In this document: piece after piece, positions 1 through 54,345 of the stretch
Position numbering within the stretch: the first letter of the stretch is position 1
Layout of the letters: each line of letters opens with the position of its first letter
NCBI GenBank assembly: GCA_025526915.1
Contig: JAHLKH010000035.1
Span: forward strand, 62,001 to 126,000
Direction of reading: 5' to 3'
DNA: 64,000 nt
DNA from: Entophlyctis helioformis
Lineage: Eukaryota; Chytridiomycota; Chytridiomycetes; Chytridiales; Chytriomycetaceae
Notes under the pieces: generated by a model
Seen by the model: only the letters and a program-made list of their open reading frames with translations
What the model was told of the DNA's origin: nothing
Database searches by the model: none
Made by a program: the position numbers and the translations under genes

Positions 1-986
1 CCACCATGGAGCCCATTGATCCAGAGTTCCTGGACGGCATTGTGGCATTCAACCACTACATGTTTGTTCGTAACGGCCAGTCGAATGACACGCTCCCAGG
101 CGCCTTTGACCGGTTTGCTGCGATCCTGTGCAAAGTGAACCAGAAGGCGGTCGACATTGTGATCCCCGTGTATCTGCCGTCGCGCAAGTGCTTCTCGGCC
201 ATCCTGGTGCAAGTCAAGAATCAGTCGGCAAAGGTTTCTGCTCAAGAGGCCCAGGAAATCACGGATGCGGCCGCCGACTTTTCATTTGGTAGGATACGCC
301 CTATCTGGTGCTGTTTCTCAGCATCCACAGAGATGACCCGAGTCTCATGTTCATTCAGCAAGACGCGGAACATGCCAATGTAGGTTTGCCTATAAGGCAT
401 GCCGGCATCCCTGCCTGTGGCTGATGTCTGACGCTCTTTGATGCATGTCTGGACAGCGGTCGATTCTCATGGCTCATGGACTGGCTGGACTCTACGACTA
501 TGACGGTTCATTCATGGACAAGTCGATCCTGGCCGACTTGGTTTGCCTTCGCGAGTCGCCCCGCATGAAGATCCCCCTCAAGGACAAGGCCAATTGGGAC
601 TTTTACGACCATGTCAACCCGCTCAGTCAGGTCCAGTCAGCATCTGCGGGGCTTGGAAGTGGCGCCATGGTTAGTTGGATGAACGGCGTTTGAGATATCG
701 CCTCTTTGTGATGGCCACTGACATGCAAGATTGTTGTGGCAGTCTGGTCCGAGTGGAGCGTCTCTGGCTGGAGCAAGCGAGGCAGGCCCAAGTTCGAGCG
801 AAGAAGGCGTCCAGGCTGGCCAAGCGCCAATATTGCCTCGGCGTCTGGTACGTCTCGAGCGGCAAAGAGAGAGTCTCTCGCCCCAGCTCGTGTAGCAAAG
901 CGTGGCCGTCGTTGATGGGCCTTTTGTTGCAGATGCGCGATGACAGACGTTGGCGCTCTTGCATTGCATCCCTTCCACTTGAATGA
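1..986 (+). CDS. Crinkler-type NTPase/nuclease, C-terminal part only (copy A)
   Basis: This is the 3' end of a gene whose N-terminal NTPase half lies outside the window; the first base coincides with the exon start seen in copy B. The first exon contains a PD-(D/E)XK-like nuclease core: an Asp in the strand DIVIPVYL, then the strand AILVQVKNQ with a Q-x-K in place of the usual (D/E)-x-K. A GT-AG intron (380-456) joins to a second exon with the family-like stretch around SILMAHGLAGLYDYDG. Compared with copy B, the segment 290-345 carries a 2-base and a 1-base difference that shift and then restore the frame. Another shift near 675 is needed to reach the last open stretch, which stops at 986 at the same residue as copy B. 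Known family: CR/Crinkler effectors pair a P-loop NTPase with a restriction-like nuclease. Whether this copy is functional cannot be judged. Confidence 0.6.
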
Positions 987-1189
987 AGATCTGATTGCCA
1001 GCTTCTGTTCTCATTCGAATGGCATCTTGAGATGCGGCATTGCATGCTCTTGCTGCGTGGCCACCTGTGCACGATCAGGGTCTGCCGCCTCTTGTTGCAA
1101 CTGCCGATCTGCGTCCAGCGGCAGACTGTCCAGCAATGCCAGGCGTGCCAAGCTTGGTGGCTGTTGGGATTGTGAATTGCATTTCCACC

Positions 1190-1224
1190 AGACATCACAG
1201 CAGACATCACAGCAGACATCACAG
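1190..1224 (+). repeat. 12-bp minisatellite in the left arm (3 units)
   Basis: About three copies of the unit AGACATCACAGC. The right arm has about five variant copies at 16031-16090, so the array length differs between arms. Confidence 0.85.
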
Positions 1225-1534
1225 AGCGTCCAGCTGCTGCTCCGTCGGCACATCCCCACCAACCCACCGCTCGTGCTCTTCTTGCCACACTCGCCACTCC
1301 GTCACGTGTCTTCTCACGTGTCTTCTCACGTGACCCAGCAGACATCCAGCCAGTTCCCACTTCAATTCATTTCATCAACGATCCTGCCGATCAACCAAGT
1401 GGGTCGCTGGCAACCGAGGTTGGTGGTGTGACGTCCTCGCAGATGTCTGTGTGTGTGCGTCGTCCACTGGCCGTCCATGCAGGCTGCTGACTCTTGGCCC
1501 ATGCATGGTACTCTGCCCGCATTGCTCCTCAAGA

Positions 1535-2145
1535 ATGACGACATCCGATCCCACGGCAGGCATGGACGCCTTGCTGGACCTCGAGACCATGTGCGTCGAG
1601 CCCACAGCCATGCCGACGCTCGCATACACACTCGCATATACACACACACAACTGACAGCTACGCACACACACACACACATACGCATGCAGGTTTGAGAAC
1701 TCGGGCTGGGAAGACGGATACAGAGACGGTGTCAAGGCCGGCCTGCTGGAAGGCCAGGTGTTTGGCAGCGAGAAGGGGTTCCAGTTTGGCTTCGAGGCCG
1801 GCTTCTATGGCGGCATGGCCGAGCTCTGGCGGCTGGTTCTGTCGACCAGCAGCAGCCCTTCCACACCGTCGTCTGATCTGGGGCTGCCGTCCAAGTAAGT
1901 CGGTCCGTTGAGCTGTTTGTGCACCAGAGGATACTGAGATGGCGTTGGTGGACAGGACGCTCAAGCAGGTCGAGTTGCTGGCCGAGAGCGCGGCCAGGTT
2001 CCCAAAAGACAATGCCCGCGACGCCGATCCGCAGCTGGATATCGAGCGGCTGCGTGGCCGGTACCGCACTGCAACAACGCTGCTCAAGGTGTCTGAGCCT
2101 GGATTCCGCCCAGCCAACACGCAGCAGCCAGGCCTTTCCTTCTAG
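1535..2145 (+). CDS. LTO1: LTO1/ORAOV1-like protein (Yae1-domain Fe-S assembly adaptor)
   Basis: Spliced from three exons (1535-1590, 1691-1894, 1956-2145), giving 149 codons plus stop with clean GT-AG borders. The middle exon carries the deca-GX3-type repeat typical of Yae1/Lto1 proteins: GWEDGYRDGVKAGLLEGQ, then GSEKGFQFGFEAGFYGG, with Gly every four residues. The third exon carries the C-terminal helix pattern with LDIERLRGRYRTATTLLK. In yeast Lto1 works with Yae1 to bring the ABC protein Rli1 to the cytosolic iron-sulfur targeting complex, serving ribosome biogenesis and recycling. In-frame ATGs at 1505, 1535 and 1562 are possible; 1535 lies just beyond the end of the inverted repeat. The gene converges on RIC1 with 97 bases between stop codons. 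Intron 1 holds an AC-rich microsatellite. Confidence 0.8.
1626..1684 (+). repeat. (AC)n microsatellite in LTO1 intron 1
   Basis: Broken runs of CA/AC dinucleotides immediately upstream of the intron 1 acceptor. Confidence 0.85.
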
Positions 2146-2242
2146 TCTCCCCATTCACTCCGACCGCCATGTGTATTTAACGGGCAATATGCAAGCGCCA
2201 AAGCTATGCCCCCTCCTTTTTATACTTGTCCCATTCAGTCGG

Positions 2243-5200
2243 TCATGGCACATGCGTCACAGAAAGCGCCAACGCATGCTCGAGATGCTTGGCGAGCTGG
2301 CGGTATCCGCGCGCCTTGGTTTTCATGAGCGCGTCTTTGAGGGATGGGAACATGGGCGTGGCAGCCTCTGTCTCGAGCACATCCAGAATGGCGTGGTGGT
2401 CCAGCAGCATCGCGCCAAGAAGAATGGCAAGCGCAGGGAAATGCCCGCGCAGTGTTGCCTTGAGCAGGTTGCTGTCGCGAGCCAAGGGGGTCAGTCGCAG
2501 AAACCACGCCAATCGTGTCAAGCATCATCAACGCACCGAATCTCTTCTTCGCGCCGGTTGGCTGGTCGCCGTGGTGCGCCGCGCGCAGATGGCCGGCGTC
2601 CCTTGCGTGGCATGCCAGGAACGTTGGGCTCGCTGTCATCCAGATTCGCACTGCTGCCTCCTCCCATGCCCGCACCGCTCTCAAACGCGGACGAGTGCAC
2701 AGACCTGCGGCGGACCGGGCTGGATCCAGCCGAAAAGTCGTCTGTCACGTAGAGCACTGCATGTCAGTGATGCGCGTCCAATGTGTGTGCGGTTGAACCA
2801 CCAAAGCGTACTCGGGAAGGGCCATCCGAACTGGTCATGCAACGCCATCAGTGTCTTGAACGTGTCCGTGACGAGTGCCTTGGTCGCCTCTCTGTTGATC
2901 CGCAGCCACCATCATCCTTGTCAGCATCCCCTTATCAGCGACACGGTCCACAGTGGCTTGGACACATACTGTTCCCGCTCAAGCCATTCGCCGAGGTTGA
3001 TCTGGAACAGCGTGGCGTAGTAGCCGAGGTCGCGGAACCGCTGATCAAGCAGAACGACCTTGGCATGGTCGTTGATGAGCGAGTCAAAGTACGCCTGTTG
3101 TACAAGTACGCGTATCGATACGGGTGAGCAAGCATGCACACAACCACGCGCCAATGCAAGTCCATCCATACAATGTCCAGCCCCTCGCTTGACTTGTCCA
3201 GCTGGTCGCTTCTGTTATGGCAATCAAGAGTGAGACGCAACACCCCGGCGAGTCCCAAACAGCAAAGTGGCATTACCGCGGCACATCTTGGCCAAGAGCC
3301 TGCATCTCAGCCTCATGCATGTTCTCTCCTTCTGCTTGCCATGCATGTGTGAGCGACGGATGCCAGCTTGTTGCTCAGCTACAGCCAACCCACCATCAAT
3401 ATTGCGCAAGAACCGCGCAAGCTCAGAGCCCATGTTGTAGTCGCGCATTTCAAACGACTTTTGCAGCAAGAGCACCGCGAGCTGGCTGCTGACAGCCGAT
3501 GTCTCGAGTGTCTGGATGATGATCAAGTACGATGTCGCTGTCCCGAGCAGTCCTTCGTCGAGCGATCTCTGCCAAGCCACGCATCTGCAGTGTCAGCCGA
3601 CGGCGTCCGACTGTCGCATGCGCAAAGCCACGCAAGACATGCCTGGAACATGGCCTTGGGATCGCCAACGACTGCGAAAAAGTACTTCCACAGCGCCATC
3701 TCGCTTTTACGAGCGCAGTTTCCAATGATCTCGAGATGGCGAGGGAAGCGCTGCACAAACCGAACCGTTCTTGTCAGCAGCGACTCTGTCAAACGCAAAC
3801 ACGAGACGTGTGTGAGCCATGACTATCCCAACCCATGCCAATAACAGCATGGCATCCGAATCAGGGACAACGCCACACACCAGAGGTCGCTTCAACCTTC
3901 TTGTCCGCCTCCTCCTCAAGGACGGTGTGCAGCAGGACTTCGAGCGCGTGGCTGAAATACTCGAGCGACTGGTAGTTGGACGAAAACACAAACGCCTTTT
4001 GCTCAAACCTGTGTTCCCAAAGCGTCAGTCTGGCTGCATGCACCCATTTCCCTCACAGAGCAGCACCATAGTTACCCAAGAATAAGCAAGTGGCGGATGA
4101 TGTACTGCAAGAACAAATGGCTCTGTCACAGGGCAAGCAACGCATGCGTCAAAACATCATCCGCGCGACAAGAGTCACGGCAAGGGGCAGACAAGCCAAC
4201 CTTTGCGTCTGTGCCAAACTGAGAAATGTCCAGCGATGTGCTCAGCGACAGACGCTTCTCGATGCCAACAAGCAGACCCTTTTGAATGAGAACGGCTGTT
4301 TGACCATGCTAGTCAGCCATGGAGCACAGATCCACTCTGCACATTCGCCAATGGGACGCACTCAGCGGGTAGTAGTCGACTGAAATGTTGAGTGCAGCGT
4401 CCAGAAACGAGCTGTCCACGCCCTCGACAGGATCGACAATGATGTTTGTCAGAATCTGTCCAACGCCACCAACAGTCAGCCAGTCAGCCAGCCAGCCAGG
4501 CAGTGAGAGTCACAATGGCGGGCATCACGGCAACCATCCATACTTTGACACTCGCGCCATTGAACGCCCACATGGTGTTGGAAAACTCCTCAATCTCATC
4601 CTCGTGTGCAGAGATCCAAAAGTGCTCCGTGTGCGTCGCAATCTGCAGTGCCTCCCATGCATCGCCACGCTTGGAGATCATGTGCAGGGACCCGTTGCGC
4701 AGCACAACAAACGGGTTGTGGATCATGGTCTCGATGGAAATCTCGCCTGGCGGCGGGAAGCGAGCCACGGCCTGCACGGTGCCGCCCCAGCCACCCACCA
4801 CATCTTGCATCGAAAAGGCCTGCTGCGGCCGAAGTTGAAGTCGGTGGCCTGTCGAGTCGCGTCAGACACCTGCCAGTTGGGATGGCAAACCACTCGAGAG
4901 GTCTGCTGAGCATGGGCATCGCCCTTACCGCTGGCAGACACATGGATCGAGTAGTATCGCACGACATGGTCGGCGCAGTAGAGCAGGAGATGCGAGTCTG
5001 TGTTGTTCATCACCAAGACGGGGTGCGGTAGCCGCTCGATATGCAGCAAGTTGGCATGGTCCAGCTTGGTCTCTCTTGAAAAGACGCGGATCTGTGTGCC
5101 ATCACCCCGCATCAGTCCTGGTCCAAGTGGTGCATCGACGGGTCGGACAGCTGCTTACTTCTGATGCGTGCGAGACGACATCTTGACAGGCGACAATCAG

Positions 5201-8014
5201 CATGCTTCGGAACCACAGCATCCCTCGGACAACAAAGCTTTGCTCCTGTTCGGGTGAACAGGGTCAGGCAGAGAGCGACATGCAGCCTGTCAAACCGTGG
5301 CGCATACCTGATGCTCATTGCCAAACAGCTTCCACTTTCCAGAGAGCGTGTTGTAGTGCGCAAGTCCTCGCGTTCCGGCGACTGCAATGAAATGCCCCGC
5401 AGAGTTGATGGACACATACTAGCACGTCAAAGCGCGTCAGCCTAACAACAACGGCAGCACGAGACGCAGCCTATCGAGCAAGGGACGCACACGAATCGGC
5501 CAGTTTTCGGCAAGGTACACACTGGGAATCTGCCGAGGCGACATCACACAATCGGCCAGTGAGTGCCTGCAATCTGCAGATCGCCAAAAAGGATGCAAAG
5601 CACGCTACCTGGATGGTCTCCCAGTTCATGGGATCGAGACTCGTGGCATCAACGTCTGTGTACAGACCCTCGTAGAGAAGAAGACGGTCGTCTTGCAACA
5701 GACAGACGTGGCGGCTGTTGCTCTGTGGGCATGGTTTGCATGGATCAGCGCATGCCGACTGACGGCGTCAAGATGAGCAGAGTGGGTGGCTTGCATACCC
5801 AAGAATCGCACGTGAGGATGGATGCCTTGGCGAATTGGAGGACGTAAATGTCGACAATGACCTCTGTCGTAAGCCGTGTCGGGAATATCAGTCAGTCGTC
5901 GGAGGGATCATCCAACCATCCGTGCCGACCCACCCTTTTCATATGGCGACGATGGAAGCACAAACAGATCGTGGCCGCTGTCGTCCCAGAACTGCAAGGC
6001 AAGATCAACGGAGCATCAGTGAGAGTCCATTGCTGGCTGCCGTATGTATGCAGTCGATACAAAACACACCAGTCCTGCGTGCCAGTGAAGAAGAGTTCGT
6101 TGGTGTTGTCGACAATGCCGTCACTGTCCGGCCATGGATAAGTAACCGGGACCAGCAGGGTGCTCGGCTGATGAGCACGTACGATGAATGCACAAACGTG
6201 TCTTCGGACACGGTGCTCATGAGAAGGCTTCCATAGACACTCCACACCGACATGCCGCCATAGATCCAAGCGACTGCGAGCGCATAGCCGTCATGCGTCC
6301 ATGACAATGCCGTTGCAGCGCTAAGGCGGATCGGCGCCTTGGCATCGCCCGGTTTGGATATGGCCATGTTGTGGGAATGCACGACTTGATGAACATCGTC
6401 TGGAAGGTCAAACACGTGCACAACGCCCTGCAAGTTTCCAACAGCAACAAGCGTAAAGGTTGGATTGAAGGAAATGGTCGTCGCAGGCACGTCGTCGCCG
6501 CTTTCGTTGTAGAAGCAATGTCCTGTCCACTGGTCCTGGCCGGGCGCCTCCATATCTGCGCTCATCTGAATAGCAGTTGGTGTCAGGAATGTCCCTGGTT
6601 TGACGTTTGAGAAGGAGCAGGCAAGCCGTACCTGCTGATCGCTAACGGTACGCTGTGCAACATATGCACGGCCCTCGAGAGACACAAGCCGAAGACGTAG
6701 CGTTCATCGTGTAGCACAATCTGCGTGATGGCTGGAGAGGCAGATGCACATTGGTCAGCATGTGCACGGAAACCGTGGCAGGGAGGCAACGACTTGCAGT
6801 CTTTTGGATCGACGATAAAGTCAAAGTCGGTCAGCGGAATGGTGCCCGCGATGTTGACTTCGCCAGACCAGAAGAGCGACAGGATGGACGGCGGGCTGTT
6901 CGTGCAGATGAGGATCTCTTCAGCAAGGCCGATGCCACTGGCAGGCGAACAGGTTGCATGAGAGCGAGCACGTCAGTAGTGCCGCGGCTTGAGCACGAGC
7001 AGGTGAGGAGCCACCGACCATTGAGTGCCCGAGTCGATCTCCAGCGCCATGCGGAAGCGCAGGACTCTGTTCATGAACGCCTTGTTCTCTCCAGGGCCAG
7101 GCGCCATGTGATGCGTCGAGCGGAAATAGCACTCGAACAGTTTGTTGTCGAGCTCAATGATGTCGTAAAAGTGCATGAAGCCCTCGTTGGTCTGTCGATC
7201 CCAGGTCAGCCATGGCCCAAAGCGATCAGAGCAGCAAGTGCACGCGCAGGTGCAAGTGCACGCAACGCCACGCACCAGAACAACGAGCTGCGTGCCGTCT
7301 GGCTTCCAGATGAGATCGGCGTTCTCTCCGTCCTCGTCAAGCGTCTCTTGGGTGCGTACGACCTTGGACAGAAGCACATCTGGCTGGGCATGCACGCAAA
7401 CAAGCCATCAGTCGACGCCACCGCTGCAGCCACAGCCGCCCAAAGGCGGCAACTCACACGAATGGACCACAGATGGACGGTGTTGTAGGTGATGGACGCA
7501 AACAGCTGCGCGTGCGGACACTTGCGGATGGCCAAGATGGTCGGCTGGTGCTGCTGGTTCTGCTGGTGCTGGTGCTGCTGCTGCTGGCCGTGGCTGCCGG
7601 GCTGCAAGTCCTTGCGGCGCCTTGTCTGCTTGCCTGCCGAACGAGGCGACGAGGCGACTCTGCGCCGCTTGCTGCTGGCGAGGCCAAGGCAGCGAGGGTT
7701 TCAGCGGCATCCTGGAAGCTGGTGGAGCGAGTGGAGGCAATGGTCTGCACGGTGGGCAGCAGCAGGTCAGCGGCAGCCGGGCCGTCGCCGGCAGCGGCGT
7801 CGGCGTCGGCGTCGTTAGGCACGGCCGGCGGGACAGCCGGCTGCGAGCGAGGGTTGGCGTAGTCGTCGTCCGAGAGCGACGACGAGGACGACGACGACGA
7901 CAGGCGGTTTGCGGCGGCGGTGGCGGCGGTGGCCGAGGAGGGCGGCGAGAAGGCGCCGTCGCGCTCGGCGAGGCGCTCGGACAGCACCCGCGGGGCACCG
8001 ACGGCAAAGTACAT
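2243..8014 (-). CDS. RIC1: RIC1, Rab6/Ypt6 guanine-nucleotide-exchange factor subunit
   Basis: A long multi-exon gene with many short introns. It begins with MYFAVGAP, matching the MYF-x-x-G-x-P start of RIC1, followed by a Ser/Ala-rich insert. The N-terminal WD40-like part includes FASITYNTVHLWSI, NADLIWKPDGTQLVVL, FVLAVGNLQGVVHVFDL-like and LSWTHDGYALAVAWI. The C-terminal RIC1 domain is clear: YFSHALEVLLHTVLEEEA, CARKSEMALWKYFFAVVG, SYLIIIQTLETSAVSSQ and LLDQRFRDLGYYATLFQ. With Rgp1 it forms the GEF for Ypt6/Rab6 on Golgi membranes in endosome-to-Golgi retrograde transport. Individual exon borders were not all resolved. The C-terminal exon ends in HALALSVTHVP. The gene is divergent from the DYRK1-like kinase, sharing a short upstream region of about 365 bases. 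Confidence 0.85.
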
Positions 8015-8378
8015 CTGCGGTCGTTGTTGTTGTACTTGTGGTTGTGCTCGTCGTGCTCGTCGTGCTCGTCGTGCTCGTCGTGGTCGTCTCTGTGCTCGCC
8101 GACGCCTCGTGCAAGATCGCCCGCGTTGGGCTGTTGAGCAAAACGCGACGAGCAGCAGTCGAACGCAGCACGCACGCAAACTCCGCTCGCCACGCACAAG
8201 CTTTTGGCCGCCACGGTCGCCTGGACTTGCCTGCCCCTTCTGGACTTGCCTGGACTTGCCCGGCCTCAGCAGGGGACGCACCCGCAGCAACCGACAGCCG
8301 CATCTGACAACGTCCAACAACGTCAACAACAACGTCAACAACAACAGCCTGCTGGACCGCCTGCCCGTGCTGCCCGCC
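8015..8378. promoter_or_regulatory. Shared upstream region between RIC1 and the DYRK1-like gene
   Basis: The 364 bases between two divergent start codons must hold both 5' leaders and promoters. It contains a 9-bp tandem array (unit GTGCTCGTC, 8037-8090) on the RIC1 side and CAACAACGT-type repeats (8308-8346) on the kinase side. No clear TATA box was seen. Confidence 0.45.
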
Positions 8379-12081
<3,703 letters not shown>

Positions 12082-12199
12082 GCAAACGGCACATTCTGCA
12101 GCATGTGGACAGTCACCCACTCACTCACTCACTCACTCGCTCCTCGCTCACAAGCCATTGTACACGCACACACATTCACGACTCGACACAACCCGCAGA

Positions 12200-12205
12200 A
12201 ATAAA
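12200..12205 (+). terminator. AATAAA polyadenylation signal of the DYRK1-like gene
   Basis: AATAAA lies 119 bases after the stop codon, preceded by a TCAC tetranucleotide run at 12117-12139. The MOV10-like gene ends on the other strand 88 bases further on. Confidence 0.5.
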
Positions 12206-12292
12206 AGAGCAATCTCAAGCCGCATGCAAGCATCGTTCATTATCACAAATAACATCCATCATATCAGGCAAAGGGAAAACAAGGTGATGCCG

Positions 12293-15200
12293 TCACTCGA
12301 AATCGCGCCAAGCCACTTCCGTGTTGGGCTCGACCTCTTCCAGCTCAGCCTGCTCAAACGCAACAGCTGGGCAGCAGACTCGGCATCGACGGGGATGAGC
12401 CCAGCATACGGATCCACGGCAACGGCAGACGCCTCCGCCTGGATCTTCTTGATCTCCGTGATGGCAGCTGCGGGCATGTTCTTGCACGCACTGCGCTCGT
12501 AGGCAAACGTGATCCACGCGCGCCACGACGGGTCGCGCAGGAGGATGTTGGCGTTGCCGACAATCAGCAGCAGCGACTTGGCGCGCGTGACGGCCACGTT
12601 GAAGCGCTTGGGGTCCGCCACAAAGCCGAGGGCGAAGCGCGTGTCAAACGCCAGGTTGTCCGGGTTGGACCGCACCGTCGAGATGATAATGACCTTGCGT
12701 TCCTGGCCTGTGCACCACGCGCAGTGGCATGAGCAGCTGGCACTGGACAGCAACAAGCAGAGTATGCGTCTGCAATCTTACCTTGAAAGGCATCGACACT
12801 GCCAACAGTGGTGTTCTCGAATCCCTTTCGCGCGAGCACCTTCCGCAGCTTCTCAGCCTGGCGGTTGTACGGCGTGATGATGCCCACGTCCGCGCCAGTG
12901 ATGGGCCGGAACATGCCGCGACTGTCGCGCAGCTTCTCGACCAGCTCGCAGACCATCATGATCTCGGGCACATTGAACCACGACGGCGAGTTGCCCTCGC
13001 GCTCGTCCTTGCCGTCCACATGGTAGAACATGAGCGGACACTCATCGTTGGGAAGCTCGGGCCAGGTAAGGTACTGGTTCGCCTGCATCTCGTCGGCACA
13101 TGGACGCAGCTCGCTGCGGTAAAAGAGCGCATTGGGAACAGACAGGATGTCTGGGTGCGACCGGTAGTTGTTGAGCAGCTTGACCGAGAGCACCGACATG
13201 GCCTTTTGGTACTGCTCCAGGTCGGATGCAGCGACCTTGAGACGCGGGTGGTGGCGGAGCTTGAGCTTGGGGTCGTACGTCACGTCATTGGGCGAGACAT
13301 AACCCATCAGCCGCTCAAGCAGCGACACGCCAAGACCAAAGTATGTCGCGACCTTGGAGTGGAGGATGGGACCGAGCTGTTTGTGGTCGCCTGCAAGAAT
13401 AAAGCGCGTTGTCGGCGGATACTTGAAGGTGTTGAGCGGGATCATGACCTCGGGCTCAAGACCCTGTCCAGACTCGTCCACAAACACGTGCGTGAAAAAG
13501 TCGTCTGGCAGACCCGCGCCATGCAGCATCGATGCAGAGCAGCACGTTGTGACCACGACACGGAACTTGAACAGATGGGCAAGGGGAGGCATGTCGTACT
13601 GGTTTTCGCTGTCAGCCTCGTGGTATGCAAAATCCTTCATGCCGGCCCAGCTCGACGGCTGCGTGCGGAAGAATGCGTTCAGACGCAGCATCTCGCGCTT
13701 GCCAATGTGTGTCGCCAGTCGCTCGAGAAGGAGATCGGCCGCCGAGTTGCTCGGTGCACAAACCAGCAAACGGGTGCGATTGTCGCGGAAAAAGATCTGC
13801 TTCATGGCCTCGACGAGCGTGACGGTCTTGCCTGTGCCTGGCGGGCCAAAGAGCAGAAACGGAAAGGGTGCGTGCAAGCCCTGCGTGATGATCGAGATGG
13901 CGCGACGCTGCTCGGCATTGCTTGTGACCGATCTGTTGTACGCCGAGAACTTGAACTTGTCGGCGGCCGAAATCTTGCCAGGAGCCAAGAGAGCCTCCAC
14001 GCGGATGTTGAGTTTGGCAAAGTCGTGGTCCATGCCGAGAACATGCTGGTACGAGGCTCGATGGCTTGGTGCATGCGGCGAAGGGCGACGCGGTTGAAAG
14101 TGAACTCGACAGAGTACTTTTGGCCCGCGATGAAGCTGCGGTTGAACGACGAGTCGAAGCTGAGAATGACATTGAGCTCCTCGACCTTGGAACAGACGCC
14201 CTCGAAGCATTTCGCGCTCGGATTGTTGGCTTCCTTGACCAGCACCTTGTCGCCACGGATCACCGACGGGCGCTTCTCAGCCAAGCCTTCGACGCGCAGG
14301 ACGTACTTGCCACCAGCCTGGAAAGTCAGAACTGCGTCCTTGAGCGAGTACTGCTTGATGTCGACCTCCATCTGGATCTCCTCGGCCCACAAGAGGTTGT
14401 TGTAGAGCTTGCTGTGCGCATCGGCTGCCGTCATGTCCTTGGGAATAAAGTTGGCCAGGAACTCGGACGAGCTGCTTTGGATCTTCTTCGACTCGTCGCG
14501 CAGGAGACAGTCACTCATTGTCGGCGGCACATCAAACTGATTGATATTGCGTGCCCATGGATAGCCACGGCCGCCTTGCTTTGGTGCCTTCACCATGTCA
14601 TTTGCATGAGCGCGCTTCAGGGACGTTGCAATGTCACGATCGTCGCGCTTGGGTCGCGTATCGACATATGGCGCGACCGGACGGATGGCATCGAGAATGT
14701 CCTTGTCTCCAATGAATGCCCTGAACTTGCGGCTGATGCCAAACTCGAAAGCACCCTCTGTCCGGAAGTTGAAGCGGAAGGCAATCTGCGCAAAGCCCAT
14801 GTGCAGCGGCGTGTACAGAAAGTGGATCGTGTCGATGCTGCCAGCCTTGATGACGCGTGGGAAGCCTTGGTCTCGCACTCGATTCTCATGCTGTCAAGGC
14901 GTGTCAGTTGTGCAAAGCAACCGATGGCAGCATGGGAACGGCAAAGATCACTGACCTGCGCGGCGTGCCATTGACCATGTCTGGGAACAGGATACTGGCA
15001 GACTCGTGGCCGGCATTTTTGATCTGGACGCCGAGACGGTAGCTGGCCCGAGCATCTGAATTGGAGAAGGGCACGGCATCGATCTCGAAGCTAGACTGCG
15101 GCGGCAGCTCGATGCCGCCCTTGACCGCCTGGCGCTGCAGCTCGGCCTGTGTGAACTTGTAGACACGCTCCTTCTTGTGTGCAGCGACGACACCATGTGG

Positions 15201-15714
15201 TAGGTGTGCGTCTTCTGTCCTTGCAGACGACGTTGCAGATCTTGCACTCGAGCGGGTTGGCAGGCCGAGCAGGGGCAGCCGAGCCATTGCTGTTGATGCC
15301 GAGCGAATTGAATGCATCAGCCAAACCGTCTGCGTCGGCATCCGAGGCGGCGCCATCCGAGCAGCAACGGCGGCCAGATGCTTCTTGGACCGGACTGGTC
15401 GGCCAGCGATCTTTGCGACGTGCACATGACGCTGCAGACGTCGCAGGTGAGGAGCGTATGGCCGAACGGGCAACCGGCGATGGTGCAGACGCCTGTTTCA
15501 GTCATGCGAAAGCACGGCACCCTGCAGGCCGTTCATCAAGCCACAAGGCAGGTTAGTCGCAGGTGATGGGTTCAATGGGCGTGCAGAAAGCCAAGCTGCT
15601 GCTGTTGCTGCTGCTGGCTGCTGTTGCTGCCATTGCAAGGCAGCAAGGCAGCAAGGCAGCAAGGCGATGTATGGCTCACCATCGCTTCGGAACATATTTG
15701 CGACCAATGGCCAT
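12293..15714 (-). CDS. MOV10/SDE3-type UPF1-like RNA helicase with N-terminal zinc fingers
   Basis: A short first exon (15714-15680, [12 protein letters not shown]) splices to an exon at 15521 that completes a CCCH finger (C-x8-C-x4-C-x3-H, ending [10 protein letters not shown]). Two U1/zf-met-like C2H2 fingers follow (CDVCSVMC and CKICNVVC), their second halves lying in neighbouring frames. The MOV10-type region ([13 protein letters not shown]) and SF1 helicase motifs come next: Q-motif AEQRRAI, Walker A GPPGTGKT, motif Ia [17 protein letters not shown] box [46 protein letters not shown] and FNVAVTRAK. An intron separates VDAFQGK from QERKVIIIS. Relatives are 5'-3' RNA helicases in RNA silencing and transposon control. 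Frame breaks without introns lie near 15400, 15200, 14060 and 12345. The chosen stop gives a C-terminus ending VAWRDFE. Confidence 0.82.
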
Positions 15715-15740
15715 GTCGAGCTTGTCCTGTTTCCCCAGCG

Positions 15741-17268
15741 AGAGTGCATGTATGGCCCAAGAGTCAGCAGCCTGCATGGAGGACAAGTGGAACGACGCAC
15801 ACACAGACATCTGCGACGACGTCACACCACCAACCTCGGTTGCCAGCGACCCACTTGGTTGATCGGCAGGATCGTTGATGAAATGAATGAAGTGGGAACT
15901 GGTTGAATGTCTGCTGGGTCACGTGAGAGACACGTGAGATGGACGTGCTGAGTGGCGAGTGTGGCAAGAAGAGCACGAGCGGTGGGTTGGTGGGGATGTG
16001 CCGACGGAGCAGAAGATGACGCTGTTGTATGCTGTGATGTCTGCTGTGATGCCTGCTGTGATGTCTGCTGTGATGCTGCTGTGATGTCTGTGGAAATGCG
16101 ATTCACAATCCCAACAGCCACCAAGCTTGGCAGCCTGGCATTGCTGGACAGTCTGCCACTGGACGTAGATCGGCAGATGCAACAAGAGGCGGCAGACCTG
16201 ATCGTGCACAGGTGGCCACGCAGCAAGAGCATGCAGTGCCGCATCTCAAAATGCCATTAAATGAGCACAGAAGCTGGCAATCAGATCTTCATTCAAGTGG
16301 AAGGGATGCAATGCAAGAGCGCCAAGGTTTGACATTGCACATCTGCAACAAAAGGCCCATCAACGACGGCCACGCTTTGCTCCACGAGCTGGGGCAGGAG
16401 ACTGTCTCGTTGCCGCTCGAGTCGTACCAGACGCCGAGGCAATATTGGCGCTTGAGCCAGCCTGGACGCCTTCTTCGCTCGAACTTGGGCCTGCCTCGCT
16501 TGCTCCAGCCAGAGACCTCCACTCGGACCAGACTGCCACAACAATCTTGCATGTCAGTGGCCATCACAAAGAGGCGATATCTCAAACGCCGCTCATCCAA
16601 CTAACCATGGCGCCACTTCCAAGCCCCCAGATGCTGACTGGACCTGACTGAACGGGTTGACATGGTCGTAAAAGTCCCAATTGGCCTTGTCCTTGAGGGG
16701 GATCTTCATGCGGGCGACTCGCGAAGGCAAACCAAGTCGGCAAGGATCGACTTGTCCATGAATGATCCCTCATAGTCGTAGAGTCCAGCCAGTCCATGAG
16801 CCATGAGAATCGACCGCTGTCCAGACATGCATCAAAGAGCGTCAACATCAGCCACAGGCAGGGATGCCGGCATGCCTTATAGGCAAACCTACATTGGCAT
16901 GTTCCGCGTCTCGGCAATGAACATGAGACTCGGGTCATCTCTGTGGATGCTGAGAAACAGCACCAGATAGGGCGTCTCACCAAATGAAAAGTCGGCGGCC
17001 GCATCCGTGATTTCCTGGGCCTCTTGAGCAGACACCTTTGCCGACTGATTCTTGACTTGCACCAGGATGGCCGAGAAGCACTTGCGCGACGGCAGATACA
17101 CGGGGATCACAATGTCGACCGCCTTCTGGTTCACTTTGCACAGGATCGCAGCAAACCGGTCAAAGGCGCCTGGGAGCGTGCCATTTGACTGGCCGTTACG
17201 AACAAACATGTAGTGGTTGAATGCCACAATGCCGTCCAGGAACTCTGGATCAATGGGCCCCATGGTGG
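15741..17268 (-). repeat. Right arm of the ~1.5-kb inverted duplication
   Basis: Reverse-complement counterpart of 1-1515. It covers the last two exons of the Crinkler-type gene and its 3' flank, and stops about 27 bases before the MOV10-like start codon at 15714. It has a longer minisatellite than the left arm and several small indels. Confidence 0.9.
16031..16090 (-). repeat. 12-bp minisatellite in the right arm (about 5 units)
   Basis: Variant copies of the same AGACATCACAGC unit as in the left arm, read on the minus strand. Confidence 0.85.
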
Positions 17269-19414
17269 CTAAAGCAGCATGTCAATGCCGTGAAGACGAG
17301 TCAACAGCCAGAGTCAAATGGCTTACCGCCTGCAGAGCGCGATGCGCGAGTTCGATGCGTCCTACCCATTGATTGGAGGTACTGTGTCGCTGCTCTACCC
17401 AGTGCGTTCGTGCCAAAGAGACCATTCAAGAACTCGCCGACGGTGATTGGCATAGTGCGGCTGCGGTACGTGGCCGACTTCTGTAGAACACCGTGGAAGA
17501 CAAACAGCAGCAGGATACACACAACCAGCTCGCCGCGTAATCCAGCATCAACAACAGCACCCTCCTCGACCGCCGCAATAAGAGAGGACATGAGCAGCTT
17601 CCAGATGCTTGTCTTGACAACGCCTTTCTCGGCAGCGCTACTGGTCGTGTCCTCCCGGAGAAGAGTCATCACGCCCTCGGCAAGGATGGGATCAGAGGGA
17701 TAGCCAACGACCATTGCATCGCGGCTCTCAGAGATCAAATAGCAGACCGCCATGTGGCTGGTTGTCATGTTCATGACAAGCTTGTGTGCTCCAGTTGTCT
17801 TCAGGCAGAGAACGGCAGTAGCCATGGCGAAGAGCGGCTGCTTGTTGGTCTCCGCCTTTGTCAGCTCGAGATTGGCGCTGCTGGAAACGCCGACGATCTT
17901 GCATCTCGCCAGATCAACCTGAGCCTCGCATCTCAGATCATTGCCGGCATCCATCCAGATCGGGCGTCCCTTGAACTTGTGCGTCGCCCAGATGGAGCAC
18001 AAAAGAGTGTCGTGATCAATTGGCCGTCTTGGATACAGTCGAGCCGAGTCAAACTGAGCCTGGATGAGTCGATGCACTGGCTGCTGCTCACTTGCCACGA
18101 GATCCCAGTAGCTGATCCGCCAGAAGGGACTAAAGAGCGTCAGGGCGTCGGCCTGGCGCAGCGACGAGACACTTGATGGTGGGGCTGAGGGCAAGAAGTT
18201 GGCTATCTTGATGTTCGTATCCGTAAAGATGGCCGTGACGGGATGCGCGTCGCTCCGTGGAAGGCATGACAGTACGTCGCGGAAGTAATCGAATGATGTT
18301 GGCTGCATGGAAAGCGCTCCAGGTGATATAGGACTCCCATGGACAAGTGACGACGCCTCATCCATAAAGAACACCAGACCAGGTCTGTGTTTCTGCTTCT
18401 GCTGTGCTGCTCTGCTGCTCCTGCTCCTGCTGCTGCTGCTGCAAATGCTCGATCTTGGCTTGGAGGTTGGCCATGGCTCTCTCCAAGTAACCCTCTGCCT
18501 TCTTCTTCCGGCCAGTTCCTGCAACTCAAAAGTCAGCAAGTGTCAATGCAGTCATCTGCAGATGCGCATCAGTACATCCGCTTGCCTGATCCACTAGCTG
18601 GGGCATCCTTTGGGAAACCATCGCTCTCGATCATGGCAAGTGCACTATCAATGTGCACCAAGGCGTCGTTCCAGAACTGGTCCACATCGACCTTGCGGCC
18701 AACCTGCAACGCGATCCATGCGCTTGGCGTCAACGCCGGGTTGCTCTCAATCGATGCCGCAAGATGGTTGATGCAGCCAAGCAGGAAGCCAATCGACCAA
18801 TGTGTGAACTGGCTGATTGGGATCACTTTGAAGCGGTCGGCGATGAGGCTGCGGAGGGGGTAGCCAGTGGACTTTTGGTCGCGCAGGTTGGTGTAGATGG
18901 CGAAGCGCTGCTTGGCCACCTCGATGCATGTGCGTGTCTTGCCCATGCCGCTGGACTGCACCATTGCGCCGTATGGAGCAACGTGCTGCATGCCACGGAT
19001 TGCCCAGGTCTCACTGATGTCGTCAATGTAGTTGTTGAACGACTCAACGCACTGGTGGGCATCAACGAGAGGTCGGTTGAGACCCTGAACGACCGATTCG
19101 CTGATGTTGCGTATGGCGGGCGCAGCAGTGTCACGGCTGCGGATGCGTGCCCTGACCGCTGCCAGATGTGCGCCAGTGGGCATGGGCAGGCCCATCATAC
19201 CAAGCTTTACGCCAAGAAGGACGTCGATAGCCTCGTCTGTCCAGTTGTCGGCGTTGCTGCTGAGGACTGTCAACATCGAAACAACAGCCGGCACAAACTC
19301 GGCAATGTCATCGGGCGTGGCCGCAGCCAGCTCCTGGACAGCAGGTGTGATCACGGCTGAGCCGCTTCCAGCCGCTGTGACATCAGTCGGCATGGTGTCG
19401 CTCAGAGATGACAT
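16289..19414 (-). CDS. Crinkler-type P-loop NTPase fused to a PD-(D/E)XK-like nuclease (copy B)
   Basis: The N-terminal exon runs from MSSLSDTMPTD (in-frame codons continue upstream, so the start is uncertain). It contains the family Walker A YGAMVQSSGMGKTRT about 150 codons in. A second block holds a Gln-rich coiled coil (GYLERAMANLQAKIEHL), Walker B LVFFMDEASSLV, and family motifs KFKGRPIW, MATAVLCL, DPILAEGVM and GLRGELVVCILLL. The last exons carry the nuclease core (DIVIPVYL, AILVQVKNQ). Known family: CR/Crinkler effectors, which combine an NTPase module with a restriction-like nuclease module and occur widely in chytrids, oomycetes and other fungi. The frame changes between the coiled coil and Walker B (near 18390), and a base missing relative to copy A near 16710 creates an early stop. 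It may be a pseudogene or affected by assembly indels. No secretion signal is evident. Confidence 0.7.
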
Positions 19415-19921
19415 TGTCGAGTTGGAGTGACAGTCGACGAAATGAAAGATCGATTTTGTAGCCACAACGCTTGAGAGTCTGGCTCTGATTGGCCAAGTCT
19501 CAGATTGAGAGTCAGGCGCTGATTGGCTGTCTCTGCACTTGTATCTGAGTGATGCCTGCACGAGTGGCACAGCAACGTCACTGGCACGATCATGCAGACA
19601 CAGATCTACCGCTATGGTACCTGCTGTTTGGAGACTGGCCGCTCTACTTGACGCACTCACGAGACGATGGTGATCCTACCATGCAGAAGCGCCTTGCAGC
19701 AAGTCCGCTCAACCGAGCACAGTCAGCCGACCTGCTCCGCATTGTGTGCTTCTGACAAGCGCCGGTTCCCACGTCAAGTTCGCTACGTCAAGTTGACTGC
19801 ACCATGGCATGCCTTGTCGGTGGACGTCCCACATTCCCACGCCTTGCAGTGGCACTTGTTGGACGATCGCGTCGAGTGGATCTTGTCCTCACAGCCACAA
19901 AGCGAGCAAACGGCTGTGACG
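19415..19921. other. Upstream region between the Crinkler-type gene and the ankyrin pseudogene
   Basis: The first half holds only short open stretches. From about 19680 the sequence resembles the regions upstream of the ankyrin copies at 27185-27530 and 52090-52315 (for example GCAGCAAGTCCGCTCAACC and TGGACGATCGCGTCGAGTGG). It is therefore family 5' sequence rather than unique spacer. Confidence 0.6.
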
Positions 19922-21310
19922 ATGAAGGCGGAGCGACAGGCGAGTGACAACGCAGACGCAGCAGCAGCCAGCCACGAGCATGTGCGCTGTCTGCAGAGCC
20001 AGCTGCAGAGCACAGCCGAGCAGTCGGCTGTTGTCGAGCAGGTCGTTGGAGCGAGTGGCAGCCAAGCCGTCGAGCCAGCAGCAACAACTGCACAGCCAGG
20101 TGTGCCTCACTATGTGGTACCGCCAGCCACCAGCGACCTTGCCTTTGGCAGAAGCCACTGGGACGGCAAGCCCGCCGATATCCACGCCATGATCCTCAAG
20201 TACGCCGGCCCACTCACTCGCTTCCTCATCGGCCTGCTCGGTGACACGGCCACACTCGACGACGCGACCAAGTTGGAGCTGTGGACCGAAGCGTTCAAGA
20301 TGGACTGGCAGGGCGATCTGGCGCTGCTGCCTGACGTTGACCTGACGGCCGACAACGGGCTGTTGCTCGCACATTCTCGCTCCATGTATCACCGTCTCTG
20401 CAAGCGCTTTCCCGATTACACCGATGCCAACTATGCGAGTAACGACGAGTACTACAACAACTACAGCGCGGACTCTTATGACGGTGACTGGGATGGACGT
20501 CGATTGCTTCTCATTCCCATGCGACACGGCTGGTTCGATCTGATCGACTTTACGTATCCGATCACACTCGCTCAGATGGCCATCCGCTTTGGATGCCTCG
20601 ATCTGCTCAAGCATCTCGACGACAAGTACAAGACGCTCCAGGACTGGATGGCCAGGCACGAGCCAACAAGCGACTACTGGGACGAGGCAGTCGACATAGC
20701 AGCAAGCAATGGACACCTCGATGTTATGCAGTACTTGTTTGATCTCGGTGTGGTATGCATGTCGAATACGATGGACTAGCGGCCGGCAACGGTCACTTCA
20801 TGTCGTCAAGTGGCTCACGAGAACAGGACGGAAGGATGCACGACGGGCAATGGATCGCGGCCGGCAACGGACACATGCATGTCCTCAAGTGGCTGCATGC
20901 CAACAGGACGGAAGGGTGCACGGCTGCTGCGATGGATCGCGCAGCTAAAAACGGCCACTTGCATGTGATTGAGTGGCTCCACGAGACCCGCGGGTTTGAA
21001 TGCACAACCGCCGCACTGGATGCCGCCATCCGCCGTGGACACTTGGACGTCATCAAGTACATGCACTCCAAAGGCGCTCGAGCATCAAGCGACACCATTG
21101 AGTCTTCTGTCCGCATAGGCAGTGCCAAGTTGCTGCAGTACTTGATGGAGTGCGGATACGCGGTTGAACTCAAGGCACTCAGCCGCGCCACGACTACCGA
21201 GATCCCATCTCCTGCTTGGCAGCCTCACACTCGACCAGGCACAGGCGCTGCTTGTCCGAGCGAACCAGGAGATGCCACTGAGGCCACTATCAAGGACTCC
21301 GAGCGACCAT
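19922..21310 (+). pseudogene. Decayed F-box-like/ankyrin-repeat gene (copy A)
   Basis: Homologous along its length to the intact copy at 52316-53812: acidic/Gln leader, F-box-like header (GKPADIHAMILKYAGPLTRF), then ankyrin repeats with the WLH pattern (NGHLHVIEWLHETRG). The frame is lost after MQYLFDLGV (near 20755), again within the next 100 bases, and once more near 21205, where the region matching LLGSLTLDQAQALL lies in another frame. Several independent shifts in one copy while its paralogue is open point to true decay, although assembly indels may add to the count. A reverse-transcriptase remnant lies antisense at its 3' side. Confidence 0.75.
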
Positions 21311-21312
21311 CC

Positions 21313-21400
21313 AGAAACTGGAAACATCAAGCAAGTGATGAATGGATCGCCAAGGGCTGCTTTTGGAATGAAGACGTGATTGCCGCACTTGTCCTCCATG
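21313..21400 (-). mobile_element. Reverse-transcriptase remnant (KCG region) beside ankyrin copy A
   Basis: Read on the minus strand this encodes DKCGNHVFIPKAALGDPFIT. That matches the segment DKCGNLIFIPTARLGNPFIT at the end of the larger LINE-type reverse-transcriptase fragment at 53815-54345, just past its ADD box. Only this short piece remains here. Confidence 0.6.
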
Positions 21401-51679: not shown

Positions 51680-52315
51680 TTCCTGTCCAAAAATCGGCTT
51701 GTGCCACTATGAACATTTGCTGCAGTTCAAAGTGGGAACGGATGGAAGTTGCGTTGAATGCATTGGTTGTTGCATTGGCCGTTGGTCGTCAGGCGCATGG
51801 TGCTGGAATGCTGAGCATGGCGAGTGCAAACATTCGTGATTGAGATCATTGCAGAGACTCCTTGTGGTCATGAGCACAGCCTGACGATCCACAAATCTGT
51901 CTTGAGCGAGTGCCTTGCTGCAGCGACACTCGGTCAACACGGCAGTCTGGTTCTTTGAGCCTGCTCCTTCATGGATTATGCTGCTTCAATCCAAGTACGT
52001 CCCACGAGCCATGGCACAGTCTCGTTGGCAACCATCTCACAGGACCACTGCCCTACAGCGTGCTGCTTGTGTTCCCAGAACTCAGACTGGATCATCCAAA
52101 GTGACGCTTGCAGCAAGTCTGCTCAACCCACCACAGCCAGCCCATCTGTTCCGCATTGTATGCTTCCGCCAAGAGCCAGTTCCCATGCCATGCCCACCAC
52201 ACTGAGCACCATGACATGCCGTGTCGGTGCATGTGTGTTGCGATGGCCCTTGTTGGACAGGCGCGTTGTGTGGATCTTGTCCTCACAGCCGCTTGCTCGC
52301 TTTGTGGCTTTGACA
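51680..52315. other. Upstream region of ankyrin copy C
   Basis: From about 51995 the sequence resembles the regions upstream of ankyrin copies A and B (CACTGCCCTACAGCGTG, GTGACGCTTGCAGCAAGTC, GTGGATCTTGTCCTCACAGCC). The frame of the protein stays open back to 51971 without a convincing start, so part of this could be an additional coding segment or a 5' leader. Confidence 0.5.
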
Positions 52316-53812
52316 ATGCAGTCGACGGACAACGCAGAGGCAGCAGCAGCAGCAGCCAGCGACGAGCATGTGAGCCGTCTGCAGAGCCAGCTGCAGAGCA
52401 CAGCCGAGCAGGCCGTTGGAGTGAGCAGCAGCCAAGCTGTCGAGCCAGGACAGCCAGCAGCAACGTCAGCAACGACCGCACAGCCAGGCGTGCCTCGCTA
52501 TGTGGTGCCGCCAGCCACCGGCGACCTTGCATACGGACGCAGCCACTGGGACCGCAAGCCCGCCGAGATCCACGCCATGATCCTCAAGCACGCTGGCCCT
52601 CTCACTCGCTTCCTGTGCGGACTGCTCGGCGACAAGGACACACTCGACGAAGCGACCGAGCTGGAGCTGTGGATCGAAGCGTTCAGGATGGACTGGCAGG
52701 GCGATCTGGATCTGCTGCCTGACGCCAACCTGACGGCCGGCAACGGGCTGCTCCTCGCACACTCTCGCTCCATGTACAACCGTCTCTGCAAGCGCTTTCC
52801 TCAATACACCGAGCGATACTATGAAAGAGAGGACGACTACTCCAACGACTACCACCTATCGTTCGATGTCACTATTTTTGACAGCCACCGGCTGCTTCTC
52901 ATTCCCATGTGGCAGGGCTGGCTCGATCTGCTCGACTTTTTGTATCCGATCGCACTCGCTCGCATTGCCATCCGCTTTGGATGCCTCGATCTGCTCAAGC
53001 ATCTCGACGACAAGTACAGCACGCTCCAAGACTGGATGGCCAAGCAAGATGTGACAAGCGACTACTGGCATGAAGCCGTTGATCAAGCAGCGAGCGATGG
53101 ACACCTCGATGTTATGCAGTACCTGTTTGATCTCGGTGTGACGGGATGCACGACGTGGGCCATGGACATCGCGGCGTATGGCGGCCATCTGCATGTCGTC
53201 AAGTGGCTCCATACCAACCGGACGGAGGGATGCACAGCGTATGCGATGAATTATGCGGCTGAGGACGGCCATCTGCATGTCGTCAAGTGGCTGCATGCCA
53301 ACAGGACGGAAGGATGCACGACTGTTGCCATGGACAAGGCGGCTGGTAACGGCCACTTGCACGTGCTGCAGTGGCTGCATGCCAACAGGGCGGAAGGTTG
53401 CACGGCAAAGGCAATGGATAAGGCGGCTGCCAACGGGCATCTGCATGTAATCAAGTGGCTCCACGAGACACGCGGCGAAGGGTTTCCACCTTGGGCACTG
53501 GGTGCCGCCATCAGCCGGGGACACGTGGACGTTGTCAAGTACATGCACTCCACAGGCGGCCGCGCATCAAGTGGTGCTGTTAGGTCTGCAGCCAGTACTG
53601 GCAACGCCGAGATGCTGCAGCATTTGTTGGAGTGCGGATACGCGGTTGACCTCGAGGCACTCAACGACGCCACGACTACCGAGATCGTTGATATTCTCCT
53701 TGGCAGCCTCACACTCGATCAGGCGCAGGCACTGCTTGCAGAAGCAAGACAAGTAGATGACGCCGACCAGACCACCATCGAGGACTCGAGTCGGCAATCA
53801 AGCAAATGCTAA
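52316..53812 (+). CDS. F-box-like header plus ankyrin-repeat protein (copy C, intact)
   Basis: An uninterrupted 498-codon reading frame. Residues 1-60 are acidic/Gln-rich. Residues 75-105 resemble an F-box (WDRKPAEIHAMILKHAGPL). About residues 215-445 form seven or so ankyrin repeats of the WLH type (GHLHVVKWLHANRTEGCTT), with near-identical units at 290-390. The C-terminus ends in a helix (LLGSLTLDQAQALLAEARQ). F-box/ankyrin proteins commonly act as substrate adaptors of SCF ubiquitin ligases; that role is inferred. Two further family members or pieces lie at 19922-21310 and 27185-27530. The intact frame contrasts with the broken copy A. A LINE reverse-transcriptase fragment lies antisense immediately downstream. 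Confidence 0.85.
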   Translation: MQSTDNAEAAAAAASDEHVSRLQSQLQSTAEQAVGVSSSQAVEPGQPAATSATTAQPGVPRYVVPPATGDLAYGRSHWDRKPAEIHAMILKHAGPLTRFLCGLLGDKDTLDEATELELWIEAFRMDWQGDLDLLPDANLTAGNGLLLAHSRSMYNRLCKRFPQYTERYYEREDDYSNDYHLSFDVTIFDSHRLLLIPMWQGWLDLLDFLYPIALARIAIRFGCLDLLKHLDDKYSTLQDWMAKQDVTSDYWHEAVDQAASDGHLDVMQYLFDLGVTGCTTWAMDIAAYGGHLHVVKWLHTNRTEGCTAYAMNYAAEDGHLHVVKWLHANRTEGCTTVAMDKAAGNGHLHVLQWLHANRAEGCTAKAMDKAAANGHLHVIKWLHETRGEGFPPWALGAAISRGHVDVVKYMHSTGGRASSGAVRSAASTGNAEMLQHLLECGYAVDLEALNDATTTEIVDILLGSLTLDQAQALLAEARQVDDADQTTIEDSSRQSSKC

Positions 53813-53814
53813 AG

Positions 53815-54345
53815 CCGGGCATGTGATGAATGGATTGCCAAGGCGCGCAGTTGGAATGAAGATGAGATTGCCGCATTTGTCGACACCAACGCCATCTGCC
53901 ACTTGTCTGCTCCATGCCGCACGCTTGCACGCGGCTGCCAATGCTGCATGCGACTCTGCGAGAATGTCCACATCGTCTGCAAGATCAGTCCACGGACGCC
54001 ATGACCGTCGGCCACGGCTGGGATGCTGATCTCGGGATCCATCGAGTATGTCATTGAGGAACAGCTTGGCAAGAGGCCAGACAGCGGGCAGCCTTGGCGG
54101 ACGCCTTGTCTGACGCTGAACGGCTAAGAGAGCACATTGCCTGATCGTGCACATGCAGTGGATGACGTGTAGAGTGCCTTGAGGAACTCGTACGTGCGTG
54201 GCAGGGGATGCCACCGGGCAGCCTCCACAGCAGCGCGCCGATCGGCACTGTGTCGAATGCCTTCTTGATGTCAGACGGCGTCAACCTTCGCAGCCGCGAG
54301 TCTCGATCGGCGACCAAATTTGTTTGATCGAGGTTTCCCCGACAG
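53815..54345 (-). mobile_element. Decayed non-LTR (LINE-type) reverse-transcriptase fragment
   Basis: On the minus strand, in order: DIKKAFDTVPIGALLW (RT block with the catalytic Asp and AFD), RQGCPLSGLL-like, AKLFLNDILDG, the active-site box LADDVDILAES, and WSRQVADGVGVDKCGN with the conserved KCG. Pieces lie in different frames, so it is dead. It occupies the gap between ankyrin copy C and UBC4, ending about 25 bases before the UBC4 start codon. No endonuclease domain, poly(A) tail or target-site duplication was found. Confidence 0.8.

Follow-up and report, generated by a model that had tools for sequence, protein, structure and literature searches.

Why should two unrelated genes begin directly behind nearly the same sequence? 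The question is raised by a 64,000-nucleotide stretch of the genome of the chytrid fungus Entophlyctis helioformis (contig JAHLKH010000035.1, abbreviated C35, positions 62001-126000 of the forward strand; "the window" below denotes the whole of this stretch), in which two inverted arms end 20 and 27 bases before the start codons of LTO1 and of a MOV10-like helicase gene, respectively. The genome comprises 29.6 Mb in 482 contigs. The original prediction for this locus, made from the letters of the window, held that the tail of a Crinkler-type nuclease gene and its flank might form a cassette that captures promoters. A unit that moves promoters does fit the data, but its relevant part is a promoter-like element present in about 400 copies, against 14 Crinkler-like places in the genome, and the Crinkler-like unit is one passenger of it. 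The best overall explanation, to which we assign a probability of roughly 0.68, is a promoter cassette that multiplies by being copied and takes upstream DNA with it.

Two genes behind one upstream sequence

The mirror-image arms, predicted at 1-1515 and 15741-17268, are real: in inverted alignment (1-1514 against 17268-15741) they are 93.9% identical over 1546 columns, and the proteins encoded downstream on the left and on the right show no similarity, so that two unrelated genes do have nearly the same sequence before them. The predicted distances to the two ATGs are borne out, and so are the gene identities, LTO1 by Yae1_N (E 2.8e-5; 24.1 bits, below the Pfam cut-off of 27.5) and the helicase by Pfam MOV-10_beta-barrel, AAA_11 and AAA_12. 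The extent proposed for the arms captured only part of the repeat, as the window starts inside the left one; with the DNA to its left, the unit spans C35:59686-63514 (window -2315..1514) and matches window 19533..15741 at 95.3% over 3872 columns. An assembly duplicate, the circumstance that had been named as speaking against the idea, is unlikely for either arm, since the two copies are separated by 60 mismatches and 41 gap openings along this 3.9 kb. A third copy lies at C9:262493-266229, bringing the full 3.8-kb unit to three copies; the similarity of the right copy to this one extends to window 19666.

The last ~220 bp of the arm consist of CACGTG boxes, a linker and a 90-bp element, here called P, and belong to a dispersed family. 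The features concerned are as follows.

1..1514, + strand: left arm, 3' part of a Crinkler-like unit (by alignment; the unit continues left to C35:59686)
1303..1332, + strand: three CACGTG boxes before LTO1 (1303, 1315, 1327)
1432..1522, + strand: P element before LTO1, 20-base core 1474-1493, score 65
1535..1895, + strand: LTO1 start and second-exon region (Yae1_N in 1656-1895)
12564..15714, - strand: MOV10-like helicase gene, start codon at 15714 (by Pfam)
15732..15822, - strand: P element before the MOV10-like gene, core 15780-15761, score 26
15741..19533, - strand: right arm, complete copy of the Crinkler-like unit (by alignment)
15920..15936, - strand: two CACGTG boxes before the MOV10-like gene (15920, 15931)

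Within the window only the two arm copies of P score; the highest P score in ten simulated windows was -2.2, under a matrix built from sites that include the arms.

A dispersed, modular cassette before start codons

Besides the three units, the other 37 of the best 40 scored matches (from 71 candidates) all fall within arm positions 1314-1532. The suggestion that the same flank might be found before other genes was confirmed by searching the genome: the 20-base core of P, with up to three mismatches, occurs at 395 places (197 and 198 on the two strands), mostly before unrelated genes, compared with 6 for the reversed pattern. Corresponding counts are 112 against 0 for the 5' half of P, 44 against 0 for its 3' part, and 176 against 11 for the box module. 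These numbers bear directly on the plainest alternative, a segmental duplication of the Crinkler-like gene in which the common upstream sequence has no wider meaning. The three units are indeed near copies of one another, but some 400 core copies, most of those sampled having an ATG just downstream, already contradict this account, which we regard as extremely improbable.

The sample inspected comprises 69 sites with up to three core mismatches, drawn from 74 with up to four in loci L001-L083; the five sites with four mismatches were excluded, although some resemble true P, and the minus-strand site at L022, which was kept, is probably a chance match. Of 70 additional regions intended for inspection, 18 were covered. 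Conservation in this set spans about -42 to +48 relative to the start of the core, and P holds ~90 bits of information (gapped alignment of 66 sequences; the share of the core is raised by the search pattern). The box module measures ~47 bp and contains two or three CACGTG boxes, often two, 12 bases apart. Of the 69 sites, 56 have a CACGTG at -190..-80, and the median position of the nearest one is -124.5; the 71,389 control bases taken from downstream contain 8.

Spacing between the modules is likewise conserved, as judged by co-location counts that are lower bounds, being taken among the matches listed (100 of 395 cores, 100 of 112 P 5' halves, and 100 of 176 box modules, from which the 83 with 0-1 mismatches were used). 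A listed core lies within 100 bases of 34 of the 100 5' halves, exactly 37 bases apart in 25 of these 34, and 112-138 bases downstream of 25 of the 83 box modules, with no listed core at the mirrored place and none within 300 bases on the opposite strand. As a check, four box-module sites lacking a listed core were fetched, hand-picked from 12 random draws out of the 47 without a listed P; all four carry P at 115-148 bases (scores 19.5-71.5), and by eye each P leads into an ATG. No exact match to the cassette was found in viral and prokaryote contigs.

The position of the cassette relative to genes is equally regular: P usually ends 0-25 bases ahead of a start codon, and the copies are mostly in sense orientation to the gene. 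An ATG opening at least 50 codons is present at +25..+115 in 57 of 69 sites (22-41 of 68-69 in eleven control windows), and the inclusion of eight possible short first exons brings the count to 65 of 69 (27-45 in the control windows). Open reading frame (ORF) pieces downstream (n=137) match 52 Pfam families, none of them in more than two pieces, and the 25 families shown include Nop9, IFT140, Hsp90, glutathione synthase, TACO1, SPC12 and Fcf1; by eye, centrin (L013) and an acyl-protein thioesterase (L022) also lie behind cassettes. The genes behind the cassette are thus unrelated to one another, and many have housekeeping roles.

Two variations on the arrangement were seen in passing. A second subtype of P has GAACC after the core in L059, L062, L066 and L034 (C9:262437); in L066 a P of this type directly follows a Fanzor-associated repeat and has no CACGTG box. 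Divergent pairs of cassettes, 170-360 bases apart, occur at L040 (C5:210973/211192), C11:196667/196838, C18:24155/24510, C120:12637/12821 and C206:6112/6473, and the members of such a pair may share CACGTG boxes.

Recent copying between unrelated genes

The list of recent copies consists of all 16 alignment rows at 80% or more over at least 100 columns. One row is a self-match, two are gene-and-promoter duplicates, three represent the Crinkler trio and two its 5' region; the remainder are five recent pairs, two upstream blocks and L010/L017, which are 82% alike over 110 columns of P. Family-wide alignments at 60-70% identity were near chance under lenient scoring and were not used.

The five recent pairs stand before unrelated genes, are 86-99% identical, and have common upstream DNA that ends at +28..+49 of P and begins at -173 to -636:

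L075/L078: 93.8%, from -627/-636 to +48/+49
L069/L070: 99.4%, from -317 to +40
L036/L037: 88.3%, from -313/-282 to +35
L027/L068: 86.1%, from -234/-239 to +44
L059/L062: 98.0%, from -173 to +28

The longest case is the Crinkler trio, with ~3.8 kb in common up to +34..+46. No protein similarity was detected downstream in any of the five pairs, nor between the left unit and C9 or between the left and right units of the trio. In the two gene-and-promoter duplicates, L012/L082 and L045/L072, the similarity takes in the gene as well; they are 96-99% alike on different contigs and are possibly uncollapsed haplotypes.

Where the common sequence of a pair extends into P, it stops within the last part of that element, whereas its 5' limit varies freely. 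Past this point the three Crinkler copies continue with different 3' parts, all P-like (scores 15, 10 and 22, with a background 99th percentile of 8). Such a pattern would arise if P already stood before the target genes and the join was made within it.

Taken together, these patterns suggest how the cassette might work and spread. A factor of the basic helix-loop-helix (bHLH) type probably binds the CACGTG boxes, and a large complex may bind P and set the start of transcription. A new copy would arise whenever a stretch of upstream DNA with P at its end is duplicated before another gene, with ectopic conversion or break-induced copying anchored in P as candidate mechanisms. The 3' edge would stay at P because a longer copy would carry the start codon of the donor, while the 5' edge would be free; for this reason selection could account for the fixed 3' edge by itself. 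The three Crinkler units would be the longest such copies, so that LTO1, the MOV10-like gene and the C9 gene would come to have one common upstream sequence, and the mirror-image oddity that first drew attention to the locus would be explained.

Inverted cassette pairs and the mobile-element alternative

Cassettes also occur in inverted pairs that recall the ends of a transposable element. On C150, ~8.3 kb lie between two cassettes that face outward and are identical over 235 bp, their similarity stopping exactly at the 3' edge of P (L088, L089 and L090; C150:60000-62100, 68450-68706); by search, C472 and C475 show the same arrangement, and the third Crinkler unit, on C9, has a P-like element with two core mismatches at its other end as well. 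Such arrangements would suit a reading of P as the terminus of an inverted-repeat or Fanzor-bearing mobile element whose insertions fall beside start codons and whose promoter function is incidental or secondary. The 1.5 kb read inside the C150 stretch near one end, however, resembles a host gene by eye (MoaD-like) and not a transposase, and the 5' limits of recent copies are scattered between -173 and about -3.8 kb, unlike those of a fixed element; on balance, we hold this alternative to be unlikely. The MoaD-like end adjoins a different flank on C94, which suggests either an inversion between inverted cassettes or the presence of haplotypes or paralogues.

Fanzor-like passengers and the leader RNA alternative

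Fanzor/TnpB-like zinc-ribbon sequences (PF07282) exceed the Pfam cut-off in at least 150 places (the best 150 of 205 candidates), a large amplification in a 29.6-Mb chytrid genome; a piece at L078 (L078:712-966), for instance, matches at E 8.5e-11. Fanzor-like fragments, some of them weak, lie within 1.5 kb of 8 of the 69 cassettes, all upstream and seven in the same sense, and 61 of 69 have no such match within that distance. Seen from the other side, for 5 of the 150 listed PF07282 places a core among the 100 listed follows on the same strand at a distance of 186-340 bases, where ~0.13 pairs within 500 bases would be expected by chance, a figure that depends on list sizes only; the places listed include just one further pair within 3 kb, whose members are separated by 2.25 kb and face opposite ways. 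We read these sequences as DNA carried along with the cassette. A bolder reading makes the cassette a selfish or co-opted gene-conversion promoter: breaks at P, perhaps made by Fanzor-like nucleases from the 150 or more genes or remnants, would be repaired from another copy of P. The target promoter would thereby give way to the boxes, P and variable upstream DNA of the donor, and hundreds of unrelated genes would end up under one E-box input. This version is not the best one, and we think it rather improbable.

The same association could be enlisted for an RNA-level role, in which P is a 5'-leader element, whether a structured leader, a conserved upstream ORF or the scaffold of a guide RNA for a Fanzor-like nuclease. 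P sits where a leader would, Fanzor-like sequences lie upstream in the proportions just given, many copies contain a short upstream ORF by eye, and the consensus fold, weak as it is (-0.95), was reached by just 1 of 60 column shuffles, a slight signal. That fold, however, has four pairs, and mutual information exceeds its null in two column pairs alone, both within the outermost seven columns at the 5' edge; no covariation above the null was found inside P. The mean single-sequence z was 0.11 (40 sites), no Rfam match was obtained at P in eight loci, the start or frame of the upstream ORF is broken in several copies by eye, and CACGTG boxes are established as DNA sites. A structured RNA at the 3' end of the nuclease gene, as a Fanzor/OMEGA guide RNA would require, was not found, given this z and the weak four-pair fold. 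A DNA-level element is thus the better reading of P, and a role in leader RNA appears doubtful. A tRNA-derived element was also considered and rejected, as the one tRNA that ARAGORN detected in 16 loci lies ~0.4 kb away from P.

Points that weigh against a spreading promoter cassette

Several observations sit less easily with the promoter cassette spreading by copying. Four of the 69 sites lack a plausible start codon by the ATG test. Two recent blocks, L012/L062 and L054/L080, lie upstream and stop short of P, so that upstream DNA is evidently also duplicated without it; in L059/L062 neither member is P-like on the 3' side (scores 3 and 5), which speaks against joining within P in that pair. 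The sample of 69 sites is non-random, having been selected by likeness to the arm and best core matches, and the invariance of the core is therefore partly by construction. Pairwise comparison of 43 independent sites shows a large excess of gapped identity over shuffled letters for the core alone (+0.33), with +0.10 for the box module, +0.09 for the 5' half and +0.07 for the 3' part of P, +0.03 for the linker and +0.01 to +0.02 for the flanks; local alignment scores agree in direction. L012/L082 and L045/L072, which are within the set, represent duplicated genes or uncollapsed haplotypes, and in the latter case would slightly inflate copy counts. Finally, the promoter function of the cassette is something we infer from position and conservation.

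The Crinkler-like unit and other features of the window

The passenger that first defined the arms carries a whole Crinkler-like gene. Its 14 places in the genome are the three units and 11 weaker relatives (34-50% identity, on 10 contigs). One-base indels separate the arms within stretches that match the annotated gene model, and the gene in at least one arm is therefore broken. The predicted identity as a Crinkler nuclease drew no support from Pfam, where no relevant match appeared up to E 1 beyond two sub-threshold hits at chance level, and the protein has no relative beyond this genome among the candidates scored; the label hence rests on motifs recognized by eye, P-loop-like and REase-like, and on the original prediction. 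The motifs do resemble the NTPase plus REase arrangement described as a common C-terminus of Crinkler (CRN) effectors in a review (PMC5289972), whereas the gene here differs from those effectors in its lack of a Pfam match above chance and of outside relatives among the scored candidates. Further features of the unit and its border are listed here.

3-383, + strand: left-arm Crinkler-like ORF piece
17301..19414, - strand: right-copy Crinkler-like ORF pieces (18569-19414 and 17301-18365; also 16889-17263), from ORFs and gene-model matches
19580..19684, + strand: short repeat bordering the right copy on its 5' side, 81% alike to a stretch of L090 over 105 bases

The L090 stretch has a repeat in common with the Fanzor-like locus L078. 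A Fanzor peptide search returned nothing in the window at E 0.01, and the description of 19580..19684 as a Fanzor remnant was made by eye. Elsewhere in the window, 19693-21393 and 52107-53881 are 77-79% alike in direct orientation, the former containing an ORF with weak ankyrin matches below cut-off, and a CA-repeat tract at 11320-11410 lies amid kinase-domain pieces of a protein kinase gene.

Relation to known systems and significance

The core-promoter motifs known to be shared between genes are short, about 6-20 bp. The cassette shares with these and with E-box (CACGTG) regulons, such as Cbf1-type sites in fungi and motif 1/DRE in Drosophila, a fixed place before the start codons of many unrelated genes and a bHLH-type box; it differs in combining a 90-bp P of ~90 bits with a box module, and in having been copied recently between genes. 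Transposon-derived promoters and bacterial mobile promoters likewise place one promoter sequence at many genes, whereas here no fixed element ends or transposase were found, and the copies have a 3' edge fixed close to where P ends but a variable 5' edge. Spizellomyces punctatus is a chytrid, too. Fanzor is described from this fungus in two reports (PMC3627910, PMC10432273), and the likeness to Fanzor elements extends to the PF07282 zinc-ribbon genes upstream of some cassettes; P, in contrast, has at most a weak RNA fold signal, and most cassettes stand apart from any Fanzor-like match. No description of an element such as this cassette was found in those parts of the open-licence literature that were covered.

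If the cassette is a promoter, hundreds of unrelated genes in one eukaryote would be under a single control sequence of ~200 bp that has been copied recently. This would allow a direct test of how the wiring of regulatory networks changes through moving promoters instead of point mutation, and it would provide a ready-made promoter for work in chytrids.

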